Shown: positions 15,693 through 52,768 of the stretch, one piece after another | Numbering within the stretch: position 1 is the first letter of the stretch | How the letters are laid out: each line of letters opens with the position of its first letter | NCBI RefSeq assembly: GCF_027359595.1 | Contig: NZ_CP114783.1 | Coordinates: forward strand, 1,364,001 to 1,428,000 | Source: Prochlorococcus marinus str. MIT 0912 | GTDB lineage: Bacteria; Cyanobacteriota; Cyanobacteriia; PCC-6307; Cyanobiaceae | DNA length: 64,000 bases | Direction of reading: 5' to 3' | The notes under the pieces: generated by a model | Database searches by the model: none | Told to the model about the DNA's origin: nothing | What the model saw: the letters and a program-made list of their open reading frames with translations, nothing else | Made by a program: the position numbers and the translations under genes

Positions 15693-15792
15693 CAAAAAAA
15701 CCGCCCAGTTCTGTTAGGGCGGTTTCTTTGTGAGATCAGGCGCAAGTGTTTCCTTGTTTCCACTGCGGAGGATCTCAACTCCTCACAAATTA
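15693..15792 (-). ncRNA. Yfr2-family small RNA, copy Y1
   Basis: On the minus strand two GGAAACA motifs (+ 15747-15753 and 15755-15761) sit in a loop closed by GCAGTG/CACTTGC and GAGATC/GATCTC. A perfect terminator AACCGCCC/GGGCGGTT with T7 follows. Tandem GGAAACA and this fold are typical of cyanobacterial Yfr2-5 RNAs. The 5' end carries TGTGAGGAGTT (+ 15777-15787), an exact 11-nt complement to the loop of the neighbouring B3 RNA. Known Yfr2 copies are abundant but of unclear function. Confidence 0.75.
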
Positions 15793-17531: not shown

Positions 17532-17628
17532 ACAAAAAAACCTGCTCTAAAGCAGGTCTTTTTGTAGATCAGGCGCAAGTGTTTCCTTGTTTCCACTGCG
17601 GAGGATCTCAACTCCTCACAAATTTAAT
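17532..17628 (-). ncRNA. Yfr2-family small RNA, copy Y2
   Basis: Same core as Y1 (two GGAAACA, GAGATC side, CACTTGCGCC), but the terminator is a different stem, ACCTGCT/AGCAGGT, followed by T7. The swapped but still paired terminator supports a real RNA gene. The 5' TGTGAGGAGTT segment is kept. Confidence 0.75.
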
Positions 17629-24353: not shown

Positions 24354-24455
24354 AAAAAACCGCCCAGTTCTAAACAGGGCGGTTTTTTTGGAGATCAAGC
24401 GCAAGTGTTTCCTTGTTTCCACTGCAGAGGATCTCAACTCCTCACAAATACACAT
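24354..24455 (-). ncRNA. Yfr2-family small RNA, copy Y3
   Basis: Two GGAAACA motifs, GCAGTG/CACTTGC pairing, and terminator AACCGCCC/GGGCGGTT with U-tract. The 5' TGTGAGGAGTT segment is kept. The promoter region diverges from Y1 and Y2 but the RNA body does not. Confidence 0.75.
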
Positions 24456-42782: not shown

Positions 42783-42929
42783 AGTTCTTAGCTGTTTCAA
42801 AAATGATGAACTAACTAATTAAAGATCGGCGTTCAGTACGAACTTTTATATAGGAATATCTTGAAGATCAGTTTTTTAGAGGACTAGAAGTGCAGTGCTT
42901 AAAGCAAGTAATAAAAGGTAGTTCATGAA

Positions 42930-45900
42930 TCAACTCAATCCAGTCATTTCAGTAAAGAGAGCATCATTTTCATTTGAGATAGCAAAATTCATGAGAACGT
43001 CTGATCTGCTCTGTTCTTCTTTATTTAAACTTCCCACCCAATAGTTAAAACCATCTTCATCTGGTAAACGGTCAAACACATTGCGATACAAGGTCGTGAC
43101 ATATTCTTCAGTGGTCACGTTCTCTCCATAACGACTTTTAAATTCAGCTGATCGAACAAATGATGCAGCAACAACTTTCTTTGTATTAATCCCAGAACTA
43201 TAGACATTAATCCAATATTTCAAACCTTCGGCATCAGGGAATCGTTTAAAGGCAGCGTTATAGAGTTGGAACATTTCACCAGAGGGATCAGTTAATCCAG
43301 TGACTTGATCAAAGGTCGCTTTAATATCAGCAATGGCACTGACATCACGTAAGGCACTTGTTGTGTCTTCTCCAGAAAATCTCAATAAGGGATAGCCAGT
43401 AATATCGTCATAACCAGAGTCTGTTTTAATTTCATATGTTCCATTGCCTCTGTTATAGAACTTGTATTCATGATATTGACCGGTATAGGTCTTAACGACG
43501 TCTACTTTTGATTCCTCTACGGTTTGATCTGAAAATTGAATGTATTCAATATTTTTAAGAGTATCAGTGCCGTCAGTTGTTCCTGTTGTCCTTTGGTCGG
43601 CGATTTCCAGAGTATTTGTTCCACGGGTAAAGGCGTAGTCTGAAAACTTTCCTGAATAGACTGACGTGTCAGAGCCTGTCCCTCCGTCTAAAAAGTCAGT
43701 CTTTGAGGTGCTTGTTATCGTATCTTTCCCTGTGGTTCCGATGAGTTCATTTAAATCGTTAACAGTGAGTGTTTTAGTAAATGTTGATTGACTTGGAACA
43801 GAATAATCTCCGTTAGGCAGAATAGTTGGTAATTTATATTGAGAATCTGTTAAGAGTGAATAGAGCTTCGTATCAGTTGCTTGAACTTTTTCAAGTGTAT
43901 TTAAAGTCCACTCATCTTTGATCGAATCTAGTCGGCCATTGAAATCCTGACCGCCTAATATAGAAGTTAAACCCCAATAAAGATACTCAGTTGCTTGAGT
44001 GGCATAATCACTGGTTGTGTCGTAATAGGTGTACCAAGCACCAGATGGATATGTCGATGGAATCTCTTGGAAATTACCACCACGAGCGACATCCATTGCT
44101 TCAGTCAAAAGTGAAGAGCTCAGGCCAAAAGCGGCTGGATAAGCCTTGACATAACCATAATCAGTAATCAAATGTAAAACTTCTTCTAGCGATGCATCAA
44201 ACTGGCCAGATGCTGCTCCATTTGGAATTGTTTCTGCACCCCAAAGGTTTTGAAAATTTAATTCTGAACCTTCTAAAGCACTTAGATTACTAGATTCTTG
44301 TTCAGCCTCATCTTTGAACATCACCAAAGTTGCTTTGTTTTGTACCATCGCATTAATGACAGCCGAATCATCAACCTTTCCATCGCCATTGTTATCTAAA
44401 TATTCGGCCATCACACTCGCAGCATGCTGAATATCACTATCTAAAGTTGTAGACGTTGCATATATCTTGACCCCAAACACCTCCGTTTCTTTCGAGAAAA
44501 TAGTTGATACTCCAGATGGAGCATCATTAGAGAGACTTCCAATTGCAAATTCTTTGACTTGTTTTTCTCCACTATCTGTTGTTTGTAGTCGAATGCTGTA
44601 AGAAGATTTTGTCTCGTAATCAGGAGAAGCTTTAATTTTTAAAGATGACCCATCAATGGTGAACGAGTTGTTATCGGTATCACCTGATCCGCTGATAAAT
44701 GAGTAAGTATGAGTATCGGAAGAATCAGGATCAGAAGAAGATAGTACGGCAACGGTTGAACCACTGTTAATGTTTTCGTTAAAGGAAGAAGAGGAGAGAC
44801 TGAGATTAGATGGTGTTTCATTAACATCGCTAACTGAGATGGTGAGAGTTTGATCCGATGTATTACCAATTGAATCGGTTGCCCTGACAACAACGACATA
44901 GTCGTTACCTGAATTGCTATCGGTGGGAGATTCGTAATCAGGAGCGGAACTAAAAGTTAAAGCACCAGTTGAACTATTGATGGAGAACTTAGAAGCATCG
45001 GCTCCACCATTGAGAGACCAAGTAACGGATTCATTAGCAGTAAAGGTATGGATTGCAGTTGTATTTTCATTGATTGATTTTGAAGAGGATGAATCACCTG
45101 CACTACCAGAAGGACCAGTAATTGATGGAGAAGTATCATCCACATCGTTAACTGAGATGGTGAGAGTTTGATCCGATGTATTACCAATTGAATCGGTTGC
45201 CCTGACAACAACGACATAGTCGTTACCTGAATTGCTATCGGTGGGAGATTCGTAATCAGGAGCGGAACTAAAAGTTAAAGCACCAGTTGAACTATTGATG
45301 GAGAACTTAGAAGCATCGGCTCCACCATTGAGAGACCAAGTAACGGATTCATTAGCAGTAAAGGTATGGATTGCAGTTGTATTTTCATTGATTGATTTTA
45401 AAGAGGATGAATCACCTGCACTACCAGAAGGACCAGTAATCGATGGAGAAGTATCATCCACATCGTTAACTGAGATGGTGAGAGTTTGATCCGATATATG
45501 ACCAGTTGAATCGGTTGCTCTGACAACAACGACATAGTCGTTACCTGAATTGCTATCGGTGGGAGATTCGTAATCAGGAGCGGAACTAAAAGTTAAAGCA
45601 CCAGTTGAACTATTGATGGAGAACTTAGAAGCATCAGCTCCACCATTGAGAGACCAAGTAACGGATTCATTAGCAGTAAAGGTATGGATTGCAGTTGTAT
45701 TTTCATTGATTGATTTTAAAGAGGATGAATCACCTGCACTACCTGATGGACCTCTGATGGTGGGTTTAATATTTATAACATCGATAGAATTGCTAGTGAG
45801 ATCTTCGATGTTGATTGCTGCATCAGCCCCAAGTACCCAGTTATCTGCAGCAGCAATGTTATATGTCGTACCTTGACTGGATGAAGTGCCGTTTTTATTA

Positions 45901-46886
45901 AGTAAAGAAACGAGATTAGTTTGATCGCTGGTGTTGAGGGTAATGCTGGCTGATGTATTTGAAGTTAACTCAACATCGGTTGAGGTAAGGGTGTAAGTGC
46001 TGCCGCCATTACCAGTGATGGTTAGCTTTGAAACATCAATGTCGTTGCTGGTACCAGGATAGGCGGGTAGATTGTTGCCGATTAAGGAGAGAATACCAGT
46101 TGCAGTATCAAAGGTGGCGGAAGTGAGAGTTGGTGATAAGACGTTAGAGACGGTGATGGCGTTTCCATTTAAGTCTGAGATGTCGGTGGATGTATCAGCA
46201 CCTGGTGCCCAGTCATCTACCGCTGCAATGTTATAAGTCGTTCCTGTTCCAGAGGAGGTGCCGTTTTTATTGAGAAGACCAGCAAGTTGGAGTTGATCTG
46301 CAGCATTCAACGTAATAGAAAATTCAGTTGAAGAGGTGATCTCAACATCATCAGAAGTTAGAACATAAGTGCTGCCGCCATTACCAGTGATGGTTAGCTT
46401 TAAAACATCAATGTCGTTGCTGGTACCAGGATAGGCGGGTAGATTGTTGCCGATTAAGGAGAGAATACCAGTTGCAGTATCAAAGGTGGCGGAAGTGAGA
46501 GTTGGTGATAAGACGTTAGAGACGGTGATGGCGTTTCCATTTAAGTCTGAGATGTCGGTGGATGTATCAGCACCTGGTGCCCAGTCATCTAACGCTGCAA
46601 TGTTATAAGTCGTTCCTGTTCCAGAGGAGGTGCCGTTTTTATTGAGAAGACCAGCAAGTTGGAGTTGATCTGCAGCATTCAACGTAATAGAAAATTCAGT
46701 TGAAGAGGTGATCTCAACATCATCAGAAGTTAGAACATAAGTGCTGCCGCCATTACCAGTGATGGTGAGTTTGGAGATATCGATATCATTTGTTGATCCT
46801 GTGTAAGCCGAAAAATTATTACCCGTGATTTCTAATGTGCCGGTGGAGGCGTTGTAGGAGGCAGATGAGATTGTTGGTAATGTCAT
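42930..46886 (-). CDS. giant repeat adhesin-like protein with cadherin repeats, RTX-like region and DUF4214
   Basis: 1318 aa with no N-terminal signal. Order: three repeats of about 120 aa (ITGNGGSTYVLTSDDVEITS) to residue 375; three almost identical 106-aa cadherin-like repeats (TSPSITGPSGSAGDSSS, SINENTTAIHTFTANESVTW) to about 690; one further cadherin domain; a globular domain at 795-1020 with DNNGDGKVDDSAV and EEVLHLITDYG; a haemolysin-type region (LNELIGTTGKDTI, FLDGGTGSD); and two DUF4214 units from about 1195. Lack of a signal plus an RTX-like region suggests type I secretion to the cell surface. No transporter genes are nearby. Confidence 0.85.
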   Translation of the reverse strand: MTLPTISSASYNASTGTLEITGNNFSAYTGSTNDIDISKLTITGNGGSTYVLTSDDVEITSSTEFSITLNAADQLQLAGLLNKNGTSSGTGTTYNIAALDDWAPGADTSTDISDLNGNAITVSNVLSPTLTSATFDTATGILSLIGNNLPAYPGTSNDIDVLKLTITGNGGSTYVLTSDDVEITSSTEFSITLNAADQLQLAGLLNKNGTSSGTGTTYNIAAVDDWAPGADTSTDISDLNGNAITVSNVLSPTLTSATFDTATGILSLIGNNLPAYPGTSNDIDVSKLTITGNGGSTYTLTSTDVELTSNTSASITLNTSDQTNLVSLLNKNGTSSSQGTTYNIAAADNWVLGADAAINIEDLTSNSIDVINIKPTIRGPSGSAGDSSSLKSINENTTAIHTFTANESVTWSLNGGADASKFSINSSTGALTFSSAPDYESPTDSNSGNDYVVVVRATDSTGHISDQTLTISVNDVDDTSPSITGPSGSAGDSSSLKSINENTTAIHTFTANESVTWSLNGGADASKFSINSSTGALTFSSAPDYESPTDSNSGNDYVVVVRATDSIGNTSDQTLTISVNDVDDTSPSITGPSGSAGDSSSSKSINENTTAIHTFTANESVTWSLNGGADASKFSINSSTGALTFSSAPDYESPTDSNSGNDYVVVVRATDSIGNTSDQTLTISVSDVNETPSNLSLSSSSFNENINSGSTVAVLSSSDPDSSDTHTYSFISGSGDTDNNSFTIDGSSLKIKASPDYETKSSYSIRLQTTDSGEKQVKEFAIGSLSNDAPSGVSTIFSKETEVFGVKIYATSTTLDSDIQHAASVMAEYLDNNGDGKVDDSAVINAMVQNKATLVMFKDEAEQESSNLSALEGSELNFQNLWGAETIPNGAASGQFDASLEEVLHLITDYGYVKAYPAAFGLSSSLLTEAMDVARGGNFQEIPSTYPSGAWYTYYDTTSDYATQATEYLYWGLTSILGGQDFNGRLDSIKDEWTLNTLEKVQATDTKLYSLLTDSQYKLPTILPNGDYSVPSQSTFTKTLTVNDLNELIGTTGKDTITSTSKTDFLDGGTGSDTSVYSGKFSDYAFTRGTNTLEIADQRTTGTTDGTDTLKNIEYIQFSDQTVEESKVDVVKTYTGQYHEYKFYNRGNGTYEIKTDSGYDDITGYPLLRFSGEDTTSALRDVSAIADIKATFDQVTGLTDPSGEMFQLYNAAFKRFPDAEGLKYWINVYSSGINTKKVVAASFVRSAEFKSRYGENVTTEEYVTTLYRNVFDRLPDEDGFNYWVGSLNKEEQSRSDVLMNFAISNENDALFTEMTGLS
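44810..45780. repeat. 318-bp tandem repeats in the adhesin gene
   Basis: Three copies are over 97 per cent identical by eye (GCACCAGTTGAACTATTGAT recurs at exact 318-bp steps), encoding the cadherin-like units. A second tandem pair of about 366 bp lies at 46010-46760. Such identity implies ongoing homogenisation or copy-number change. Confidence 0.9.
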
Positions 46887-51424: not shown

Positions 51425-51686
51425 GAGTTCAATTTCTTTTATTATCTCTTATGTGGAATCATCTAAGTGAAACCCTATAGCAGATGAAAGGGAAGGTATG
51501 GAAGTAGTTTGGATGCAAGTTAAAGATGCATGCGAGATATTAAAAGAAGAAACTAATGCCAAAGATGAACACATCAGAAAAATGCTCAAAGAGATGGCTC
51601 ATCGTTATTACTCATCTGTAATATTGGCAAGTTTAGAATCAATAGAAAAAAGCACCCAATCAATGAGTGCTTTTAGAAGAATATAA
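51425..51686 (+). pseudogene. damaged paralogue of the 53-aa helical microprotein
   Basis: The original start region has lost one base (AAGTGAAACC against AAGTGGAAACC at 49532), giving an early TGA. From ATG 51498 the rest is intact (VWMQVKDACEILKEETNAKD), but the original stop is lost and the frame runs through a terminator (AAAAAAGCACCC ... GAGTGCTTTT, 51648-51675) to 51686. A product of 62 aa from ATG 51498 is possible. Confidence 0.6.
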
Positions 51687-51708: not shown

Positions 51709-51918
51709 TTACTTTTCAATTGCCTTAAATATGCCATCTTTTTGAAACCGATTTTTCAAAGTAGTTGTACTACCTGATGTCCAAATACTTGTAGTGCCTC
51801 CACTTGTCCAAATATTTGGTTTTCTGTTTGGATTTTTAGTTCTGTACCATGTAGTGATATGAGGAGCACCACCAGCAATTTCAGATAGTTGATCAAGAGT
51901 GACTTCAGTGTTTTTCAT
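51709..51918 (-). CDS. double-glycine-leader peptide, bacteriocin-like (1)
   Basis: 69 aa. The leader MKNTEVTLDQLSEIAGG ends in a GG cleavage motif; the core (TWYRTKNPNRKPNIWTSGGT) has repeated WTSG/TTT units. The 5' leader DNA is shared with the next two genes. Expected to be exported by a peptidase-containing ABC transporter, not present here. Confidence 0.65.
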   Translation of the reverse strand: MKNTEVTLDQLSEIAGGAPHITTWYRTKNPNRKPNIWTSGGTTSIWTSGSTTTLKNRFQKDGIFKAIEK

Positions 51919-52030
51919 TGTCTTAGATAGTTGTGAGGGTTGAATCCCTTCGATGTACTTAGTATCTCTCCAATTAATGATTGAGGTGTTGATCTAGTCC
52001 TGATGAATCTGTGAGGTTGGTCACAAGTAA
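51919..52030 (-). repeat. shared 5' leader, copy 1
   Basis: Minus strand contains GATCAACACCTCAATCATTA, GAGAGATACTAAGTACATCG and GAAGGGATTCAACCCTCACA, also found before the other two peptide genes. GGGATTCAACCC can form a small hairpin. Confidence 0.75.
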
Positions 52031-52031
52031 T

Positions 52032-52078
52032 AACAATTAAAAAGGGAGTTAATTATTATTAAATGACTCCCTTTTATG
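52032..52078. terminator. hairpin terminator between peptide genes 1 and 2
   Basis: AAAAAGGGAGTTAATT pairs with AAATGACTCCCTTTT around an AT loop; it ends the minus-strand gene at 52090. Confidence 0.6.
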
Positions 52079-52089
52079 AATTGAAACTT

Positions 52090-52299
52090 CTAATCAACAA
52101 TTCCTGCATTCTTGCCTGCTTCATGTGCAGCTTTTTCGAAATCCTCTCCTGCAGCTAATCCCCCAGCCAATCCTGCATAGAATGCCACTGCTGTTGGAGC
52201 ATTTCTAGCAATGAAGCGAATTGCTTGAGCGTGCCATGCTCCATTTATATGAGAAAGATCATCAATTGAAATTTCTTGATCAAAGTTGTCGTTGTTCAT
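52090..52299 (-). CDS. double-glycine-type leader peptide, bacteriocin-like (2)
   Basis: 69 aa from ATG 52299. Leader MNNDNFDQEISIDDLSHING with a G-A cleavage pair, then a small-residue-rich core (APTAVAFYAGLAGGLAAGED) like class II two-peptide bacteriocins with GxxxG. The longer frame upstream is the shared leader DNA and is not used as protein here. Confidence 0.65.
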   Translation of the reverse strand: MNNDNFDQEISIDDLSHINGAWHAQAIRFIARNAPTAVAFYAGLAGGLAAGEDFEKAAHEAGKNAGIVD

Positions 52300-52412
52300 T
52301 GTTTTAAAAAAGTTGTGAGGGTTGAATCCCTTCGATGTACTTACTATCTCTCTAATTAATGATTGAGGTGTTGATCTACTTCTGCTTAATCTGTGAGTTT
52401 GGTCACAGATGA
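52300..52412 (-). repeat. shared 5' leader, copy 2
   Basis: Nearly identical over 110 bases to 52657-52768, while the genes they precede differ in their mature parts. Confidence 0.8.
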
Positions 52413-52426
52413 AAACACACATAAAA

Positions 52427-52452
52427 AAGCCACGCATAAAGCGTGGCTGATA
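52427..52452 (-). terminator. terminator of peptide gene 3
   Basis: Minus strand AGCCACGC, loop TTTAT, GCGTGGCTTTTTT: an 8-bp stem with U tail, 25 bases after the gene at 52477. Confidence 0.75.
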
Positions 52453-52476
52453 TACATTCATATCAAAGATAATTTC

Positions 52477-52656
52477 CTATCTTTTTACATCGTTGTTTTC
52501 AGGGCTTTCTGGAAATGTTGGAGATGGTTTTGGCCAAATAATTGGTGGGAATGGGAATTGAATTGGAGGCCATATACATCCTCCACGTTTTACTCCTCCA
52601 TTAATACTTTGAAGTTCGTCAACACTAAGCATTTGATCAAAGTTTTCGTTGTTCAT
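52477..52656 (-). CDS. double-glycine-leader peptide, Pro/Trp-rich core (3)
   Basis: 59 aa from ATG 52656. Leader MNNENFDQMLSVDELQSING-G, cleavage after GG, then a core VKRGGCIWPPIQFPFPPIIW and PKPSPTFPESPEN. The leader resembles that of peptide 2, the core does not. Proline/tryptophan-rich cores suggest an antimicrobial or signalling peptide; not tested. Confidence 0.65.
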   Translation of the reverse strand: MNNENFDQMLSVDELQSINGGVKRGGCIWPPIQFPFPPIIWPKPSPTFPESPENNDVKR

Positions 52657-52768
52657 TGTTTTAAAAAAGTTGTGAGGGTTGAATCCCTTCGATGTACTTA
52701 CTATCTCTCTAATTAATGATTGAGGTGTTGATCTACTTCTGCTTAATCTGTGAGTTTGGTCACAAGTG
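52657..52768 (-). repeat. shared 5' leader, copy 3
   Basis: Same block as copies 1 and 2 directly before ATG; probably carries promoter and untranslated leader. The frame is open in copies 2 and 3, but copy 1 differs non-synonymously and ends, so protein coding is unlikely. Confidence 0.8.

Follow-up and report, generated by a model that had tools for sequence, protein, structure and literature searches.

Biofilm formation by S. elongatus PCC 7942 requires the EbfG1-4/PteB system, which comprises four small GG proteins and a C39 peptidase transporter; until that work, no study had addressed what cyanobacterial GG-motif small proteins do, as the sections considered here state (PMC4997328). Group V bacteriocin clusters are characterized, in the part of the description used here, by a short-type C39 ABC transporter, a peptidase-less ABC transporter, an HlyD protein and a two-CAP_ED protein (Wang et al. 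2011, PMC3140520); the portion of the table available to us has NATL1A and NATL2A under group I only. Prochlorosins, known from MIT9313, combine a conserved front with many cores, and the CCRG-2 RiPPs (NF033456) have a short leader ending in GG; the literature searched yielded nothing on how CCRG-2 genes are regulated or on mosaic cores among them. A paper by Aharonovich and Sher (2016) reportedly deals with co-cultures of Prochlorococcus and Alteromonas. This paper is cited on where CCRG-2 and prochlorosins occur in an excerpt of PMC8120280. With regard to regulation, Synechocystis SYCRP1 binds E. coli CRP consensus sites, according to an excerpt of PMC4284465, and one review describes, in the part considered, marine picocyanobacteria as lacking cAMP receptors. 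In marine Synechococcus, the Syn_GI122 island module contains adenylate cyclases near CRP as well as secreted and surface proteins; GG peptides, an operator and mosaic cores are unmentioned in the passage concerned (PMC7522525).

The locus described here lies in the Prochlorococcus marinus str. MIT 0912 genome, which comprises 1,898,947 bases in a single contig (C1), and a stretch of 64,000 nucleotides, called the window in the following, was analyzed. On its minus strand, three small genes encode GG-type precursors. Gene 1 (51709..51918, 69 aa) has the leader MKNTEVTLDQLSEIAGG and a mosaic core with the modules PHITTW, NIWTSGGTTSIWTSG and GIFKAIEK, gene 2 (52090..52299, 69 aa) has the leader MNNDNFDQEISIDDLSHINGA and an Ala-Gly-rich core, and gene 3 (52477..52656, 59 aa) has the leader MNNENFDQMLSVDELQSINGG and a Pro-Trp-rich core. 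Two leader types can be distinguished, MKNTEVTLDQLSEIAGG versus MNND/ENFDQ...INGG/A. Terminator-like hairpins are located 3' of gene 3 (52428..52448) and 3' of gene 1 (51648..51674), both on the minus strand. The first-pass annotation had described a nearly invariant front of 110 bp before three GG-leader genes with unrelated cores. The front is real: the upstream 111 nt are identical for genes 2 and 3, and gene 1 shares 90% identity. The cores, with the WTSGGTTSIWTSG repeat in one, Ala and Gly in the second, and Pro and Trp in the third, are as unrelated as had been stated. The designation as GG-type precursor genes stands as well, except that the leader of gene 2 ends in Gly-Ala and not in Gly-Gly.

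The invariant front opens with a perfect CRP-type palindrome, TGTGA-N6-TCACA, which is present on the minus strand at 52749..52764 for gene 3 (TGTGACCAAACTCACA), at 52392..52407 for gene 2, and at 52010..52025 for gene 1 (TGTGACCAACCTCACA). Three such palindromes were observed in the window versus 0.07 expected, and three or more were found in 0 of 100 shuffles. A second, degenerate CRP-like site follows 22 bp downstream, with the sequence AGA-N6-TCA for gene 3 (52729..52740) and for gene 2 (52372..52383), and in the more degenerate form AGG-N6-TCA for gene 1 (51990..52001), again on the minus strand. Alignment of 29 of 32 blocks from four genomes revealed that both half-sites of the palindrome are invariant; the invariant columns are TGTGA..AA..TCACA, G26, TCA at 34-36, GAGA at 58-61, T65, A72 and G75. 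The three blocks left out stem from the genome under study, namely the degraded copy at 534131 and the copies at 534509 and 599933, which have another UTR. The exact palindrome was also found in 21 of 25 further loci from other genomes, and TGA-N6-TCA was present exactly 22 bp downstream in 24 of the 25 and at none of the other offsets tested; none of the 25 had contributed to the model, but it was the model that detected them, and since it favored G26, A27 and TCA, they are not fully independent.

Conservation and spacing point to a putative -10 element on the minus strand, GATAGT at 52700..52705 for gene 3 and at 52343..52348 for gene 2, and GATACT at 51961..51966 for gene 1. With GATAGT or GATGGT at alignment positions 60-65, transcription would start near position 72, and the two CRP-like sites would be centered at -63.5 and -41.5. 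For gene 3 the start would be at about 52693, and if so, its second site would have its center at about -41.5, which we take to be the class II position. The corresponding predicted starts, about 63 bp from the palindrome center, are 52336 for gene 2 and 51954 for gene 1. A scan with the sigma-70 consensus did not have the putative -10 elements among its sites, and promoter-like sites were no commoner than in shuffled sequences.

Directly downstream, a 5'UTR stem-loop, AGGG-ATTCAA-CCCT in gene 3, is found on the minus strand at 52675..52688 (gene 3), 52318..52331 (gene 2) and 51936..51949 (gene 1). When distinct UTR segments were taken from the presumed transcription start (counted with the rows of genome G218 excluded except L149), 30 of 35 beat 95% of their letter shuffles in folding, compared with 5 of 42, 0 of 43 and 1 of 44 control segments. 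Covariation on fixed columns was no better than in shuffles, and the refolding results support a stem-loop with a drifting register. The stem-loop is well supported, and in most copies of this genome the UTR is conserved as well as the operator, as would be expected if the 110 bp were mainly an RNA element, a 5'UTR regulator or an sRNA, with an incidental palindrome. However, Rfam 15 gave no match above the gathering score at 51709-52768, and the operator half-sites are kept from genus to genus, but the sequence and the register of the stem drift. In addition, the copies at 534509 and 599933 have the same operator in front of an entirely different UTR, which shows that operator and UTR are separable. 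We regard an RNA element as quite improbable. Instead, the conserved 110 bp have the appearance of a block made up of operator, promoter and 5'UTR that belongs to a CRP-type regulon.

A genome-wide search with the front yielded 17 matches at E <= 8e-6, and the next best match had E = 0.34. Three of the matches are in the window and 14 are located at 534-600 kb, so the front is not a three-copy local repeat. Each of the 17 copies is followed by a GG-leader ORF, in agreement with the earlier view of the genes behind the front; the ORF at C1:566105 lacks a start codon and is broken, and the copy at 534131 has a degraded operator. The exact palindrome occurs 22 times in the genome, versus twice for the reversed pattern. 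Sixteen of the 22 sites are 5' of GG-peptide genes, the broken gene included, and the 17th gene has a site with one mismatch. Of the others, one at 517196 precedes the gene for a 635-aa calpain-like protein, one at 565695 precedes the gene for a 389-aa RTX protein, and one at 525859 (TGTGATCTAGATCACA) lies 8 bp beyond the 3' end of a gene for a CRP-type regulator; the sites at C1:587885, 1144253 and 1613010 were regarded as fortuitous, and the context of 587885 was inspected. Together, the window and C1:505-615 kb contain 19 blocks, which lead to 17 GG-peptide genes (one broken), the RTX protein and the calpain-like protein. Outside the window, the GG genes are single or in short groups, interspersed with other genes.

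The first-pass annotation had named the presence of the segment upstream of non-peptide genes as a refutation, and the block does front the calpain-like and RTX proteins and, in other genera, several kinds of proteins. We read this as a widening of the earlier claim rather than its overturning: with non-GG proteins behind it as well, the block is not a leader of peptide genes only but would be the promoter of a regulon. The calpain-like protein (C1:517301-519208, L117:12301-14208; also L030:1249-2889) has a PPC domain, and a gene for a TpsB/ShlB-like outer-membrane transporter is located near its gene.

Some distant copies are linked by cassette-sized duplications (513 bp at 97% and 493 bp at 94.5% identity), which would also be produced by a selfish repeat that sits before small ORFs by chance. 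Yet the ATG follows the block at a stereotyped distance in several genera, at +105 to +121 in nearly all cases and otherwise at +90, +132, +133 or +140, and no copies were found in viral contigs, searched with an exact 23-base pattern, or in phage records. A selfish repeat is thus very improbable.

The gene for the CRP-type regulator (C1:525883-526569, 228 aa) encodes a protein with the domains PF00027, PF13545 and PF00325, i.e. cNMP-binding and Crp HTH domains, all above cut-off. Its score with the NCBIfam equivalog for E. coli-type CRP was 61.6 bits, far under the cut-off of 266. In an alignment with an E. coli CRP chain, the nucleotide pocket retains GE...RSA and the recognition helix retains SRET..R, the residues of which presumably read TGTGA. 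The genome thus has both a CRP-type regulator with the SRET..R helix and palindromic operators whose distance to the gene is fixed. TGTGA-N6-TCACA sites and the kept recognition helix are shared with the regulons of E. coli CRP and Synechocystis SYCRP1; unlike in those regulons, most sites (the 16 of 22 mentioned above) are found before GG-peptide genes, and the operators form a pair of fixed geometry. The gene taken for NtcA was also considered as encoding the binder, which is unlikely, as five genomes of the same genus with 1-4 palindromes contain counterparts of this CRP-family gene. The other CRP-family genes of the genome likewise have counterparts in those five palindrome-poor genomes.

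Near the regulator gene, a CHASE2/class III nucleotide cyclase is encoded (C1:522988-524733). In the aligned segment it has Ala where CyaC and CyaB carry Thr, at a position that we assume to touch the base. Owing to this replacement cGMP is possible, and the nucleotide is uncertain.

Divergent from the regulator gene are genes for a two-cNMP-domain protein, an ABC ATPase, an HlyD protein and a C39 ABC exporter. In this operon (526.7-533.9 kb), TIGR03796, TIGR03794 and TIGR03896 scored above cut-off, and the second ABC protein reached 612 bits with TIGR03797, under the cut-off of 709. The C39 peptidase transporter that the first-pass annotation had suggested looking for in the genome is thus present; the C39 peptidase family PF03412 matched at C1:531712 with 129 bits and at C1:1195156 with 28.7 bits. 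With a C39 ABC protein, a second ABC protein, HlyD and a two-CAP_ED protein, the locus has the composition of NHLP export and of the group V clusters. In contrast to those clusters, the precursor genes are scattered across some 65 kb, with a further locus at a distance of 0.8 Mb, and share one promoter cassette. A genome-contig search for relatives of the exporter revealed 27 loci with 27-42% identity. The interval that separates the exporter operon from the regulator gene contains no palindrome with zero or one mismatch, which makes the exporter an unlikely member of the regulon.

Leader positions -12, -7 and -4 are contacts for a C39 protease, as stated in a section of PMC6363468. Hydrophobic residues at these positions before the GG-type end were found in 15 of the 16 intact peptides of the genome, including all three of the window, and in 30 of 32 short products overall, the cleavage site having been picked by best fit in this scoring. 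One sibling leader ends in Ala-Gly. A scan for CCRG-2 (NF033456, cut-off 24 bits) covered 13 of the 16 intact GG peptides, i.e. the three of the window and 10 siblings. Four of the 13 passed, all of them siblings (33, 29.8, 27.9 and 25.8 bits), whereas the window peptides fell short of the cut-off, with 19.5 bits for gene 1, no hit for gene 2 and 21.1 bits for gene 3. Similar results were obtained with the model for class IIb bacteriocins of the lactobin A/cerein 7B type (TIGR03949, cut-off 21.5): two of the 10 siblings passed with 27.1 and 24.1 bits (at 555 kb and 559 kb), gene 3 had 12.4 bits, and genes 1 and 2 had no hit. The copy at 573936 encodes the same protein sequence as the copy at 559 kb. 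Pro1404, tried as a name for a family of secreted peptides, was rejected, as it is actually a glucose transporter gene.

One front with many cores would also fit a prochlorosin-like RiPP pathway, in which a distant, promiscuous enzyme modifies the cores after translation. The four of 10 siblings above the CCRG-2 cut-off are in line with such a pathway, given that CCRG-2 is called structurally related to prochlorosins in the excerpt of PMC8120280. However, Pfam gave no Nif11 match in the three window peptides, which confirms the earlier statement that a Nif11 leader is absent, and on this point membership of the window peptides in the prochlorosins fails. Furthermore, Cys is present in nine of the 16 intact cores and two Cys are present in only one, which would allow few thioether rings. 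We consider a RiPP pathway of this kind improbable. The likeness to prochlorosins that had been proposed is thus retained for the plan of one front and many cores, but not for the origin of the cores, several of which are mosaics that arise here by module shuffling.

These mosaics consist of modules that, by eye, recur in varied order and company: GVFAKLDGFK, I-I/V-HP-Q/E-F and PH-I/Y-TTW, and further WTSGGTTSVWT and its relative NVWTNGSATSFED, RGF-x-VGPI-x-RRG, GLHDSVHC and II-V/L-PTDGDDI. In local alignments of the 16 cores with foreign products, six cores scored higher than the best of 60 shuffled cores, namely 577186 (84 vs 52), 594221 (83 vs 47), 600066 (59 vs 40), 578347 (52 vs 44), 577943 (52 vs 49) and 554826 (173 vs 60), the last by a match that is a whole-core relative in a genome of another genus (G222) and not a module. 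Three further cores came no higher than the 95th percentile of the shuffles: that of window gene 1 (53, with the percentile at 41 and the best shuffle at 54), the copy at 534131 (42 vs 41) and, marginally, 559497 (41 vs 41); a twin protein identical to 559497 failed when compared with shuffles of itself. For the other two window genes, 2 and 3, this comparison gave no significant foreign module match. Some modules are common to leaderless proteins of other genera. Pfam, with which five proteins were scanned, had no family covering the three mosaic proteins among them. Descriptions of the operator or of mosaic cores were not found in the titles and abstract openings searched, with most subscription papers lying outside that search.

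The distribution of the block was analyzed in the genus and in the family. In the family survey, the genus is represented by 23 further genomes, each of which has 0-4 exact palindromes. Among the 40 other genomes of the genus sample (n = 41 with the one studied here; 17 of 41 are at least 90% complete), only G038 contains close full-length relatives of the regulator (39% identity) and of the exporter (64% identity). A class III cyclase domain is present in three of the 41, i.e. the genome studied here, G038 (L118, L119) and G013 (L089). G013 has the cyclase, but neither the block nor, at E <= 1e-20, the regulator was detected in it.

With a covariance model, the block was detected in 53 of 400 family genomes and in seven of 59 genera; no more than 10 candidates per genome were scored in this survey and stricter filters were used, such that the counts per genome are minimum values and weak blocks may have been missed. 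The regulator was found in 74 of the 400 at E <= 1e-20. If both surveys drew the same 400 genomes, as is assumed here from the genome handles they have in common, block and regulator co-occur in 41, the block alone is present in 12, the regulator alone in 33, and neither in 314, which corresponds to an odds ratio of 32.5 and a p of 6e-25 in a statistic that ignores shared descent. Five of the 12 genomes with the block alone are near-complete. CRP-family HTH genes are present in each of these five, but they are also present in block-free genomes, and thus the exception stands. Of 31 regulator loci, only three have a strong block at a distance of up to about 1.5 kb from the regulator gene, and the locus studied here has a 20-bit match only.

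The genes behind the block were inspected in 30 loci fetched with the model, which include one copy each from this genome, G222, G218 and G038 that had been used in the model. Seven encode GG-leader peptides, nine encode mosaic proteins without a GG leader, eight encode larger proteins of at least 133 aa, several with RTX-like repeats as judged by eye, three encode small proteins with N-termini that look signal-like by eye, and three (L166, L175 and L176) have no assigned ORF. In G222, 10 of 11 blocks in the fetched stretches precede GG-type peptides. In G218, seven of 16 palindromes were fetched with their surroundings, the block was present at five of the seven, and none of these five is 5' of a GG-type peptide. 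Another genus is represented by G160, in which at least six block copies of the same direction are present about 870-990 bp apart (G160:C1:2279388-2283946); one of them (L168) precedes a 204-aa Gln-rich protein with a start that looks signal-like by eye.

A CRP-type regulon combined with C39 export of small peptides is the best explanation, and we consider it probable. The three window genes would be members of this regulon that share one promoter cassette. The cyclic nucleotide produced by the CHASE2/class III cyclase, presumably cAMP, probably charges the regulator, which would bind to TGTGA-N6-TCACA at about -63.5 and to the weaker site 22 bp closer at about -41.5, and would thereby activate the GATAGT-type -10 element, such that the mRNA would start just 5' of the small stem-loop. 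The leader, with its hydrophobic residues at -12, -7 and -4, is predicted to dock the precursor on the C39 domain of an NHLP-type exporter, most plausibly that at 526.7-533.9 kb; the C39 domain would cut after GG or GA, and the core would be exported. Some cores look like class IIb bacteriocins; others appear to be mosaics of 10-20-residue modules that may have been shuffled by recombination and cassette duplication. The peptides probably serve in antagonism toward, or recognition of, close relatives.

Because siblings pass the cut-offs for CCRG-2 and for class IIb bacteriocins, the peptides are referred to here as bacteriocin-like GG peptides of a CRP-type regulon. The main rival shares the regulon and the export steps and differs only in the role of the peptides, which would be exported matrix, biofilm or cell-recognition proteins like those of the EbfG1-4/PteB system, such that the switch would lead to an attached or aggregated state. 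The involvement of several small GG proteins and one C39 transporter in biofilm formation in that system is a precedent, the regulon also includes the RTX protein and the calpain-like protein encoded near the TpsB-like gene, and SYCRP1 is described, in the excerpt of PMC4284465, as affecting pili and controlling cell surface proteins. On the other hand, two of 10 siblings reach the curated class IIb bacteriocin cut-off, and the peptides exceed the four EbfG proteins in number and in variety. Mature EbfG1-4 are without homology to other cyanobacterial proteins, and the EbfG genes are cotranscribed, as stated in the sections of PMC4997328 considered, whereas here modules cross genera and each of the 17 genes has a CRP-type block of its own. 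We consider a matrix role less likely.

We tentatively propose that marine picocyanobacteria contain an island-borne CRP-type regulon, in which one cassette might drive a combinatorial arsenal, with modules shuffled between GG peptides and larger leaderless mosaic proteins across genera, resulting in strain-specific secreted sets for antagonism or kin recognition. The shared operator points to a candidate regulator and a candidate second messenger, through which all the peptide genes might be switched on or off together and their products sought in the medium. Islands of the Syn_GI122 kind, which are similar in having cyclases near CRP, would be supplied with a target set by such a regulon. 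Module shuffling would be a further route to peptide diversity beside the core variation of the prochlorosin type.

Several other repeats were observed in the genome. One of about 730-825 bp and 94-98% identity is present at four places: in the window at 42885-43652, where it overlaps the C-terminal end of a 1318-aa ORF (42930-46886), and at C1:534642-535466, 542956-543780 and 592363-593162. One of its copies overlaps the DUF4214 end of an ORF at 534.7-537.9 kb, near the exporter. A second repeat of about 1.1-1.3 kb is present three times with 89-92% identity (C1:601634-602984, 550110-551287 and 509788-511050), and an ORF that looks psbA-like by eye is located at C1:604180-605262 (L034:4180-5262). 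The only Rfam matches in the window are three Cyano-1 RNAs (RF01701), all above the gathering score, which are encoded within 9 kb on the minus strand at 15728-15792, 17561-17625 and 24387-24451.
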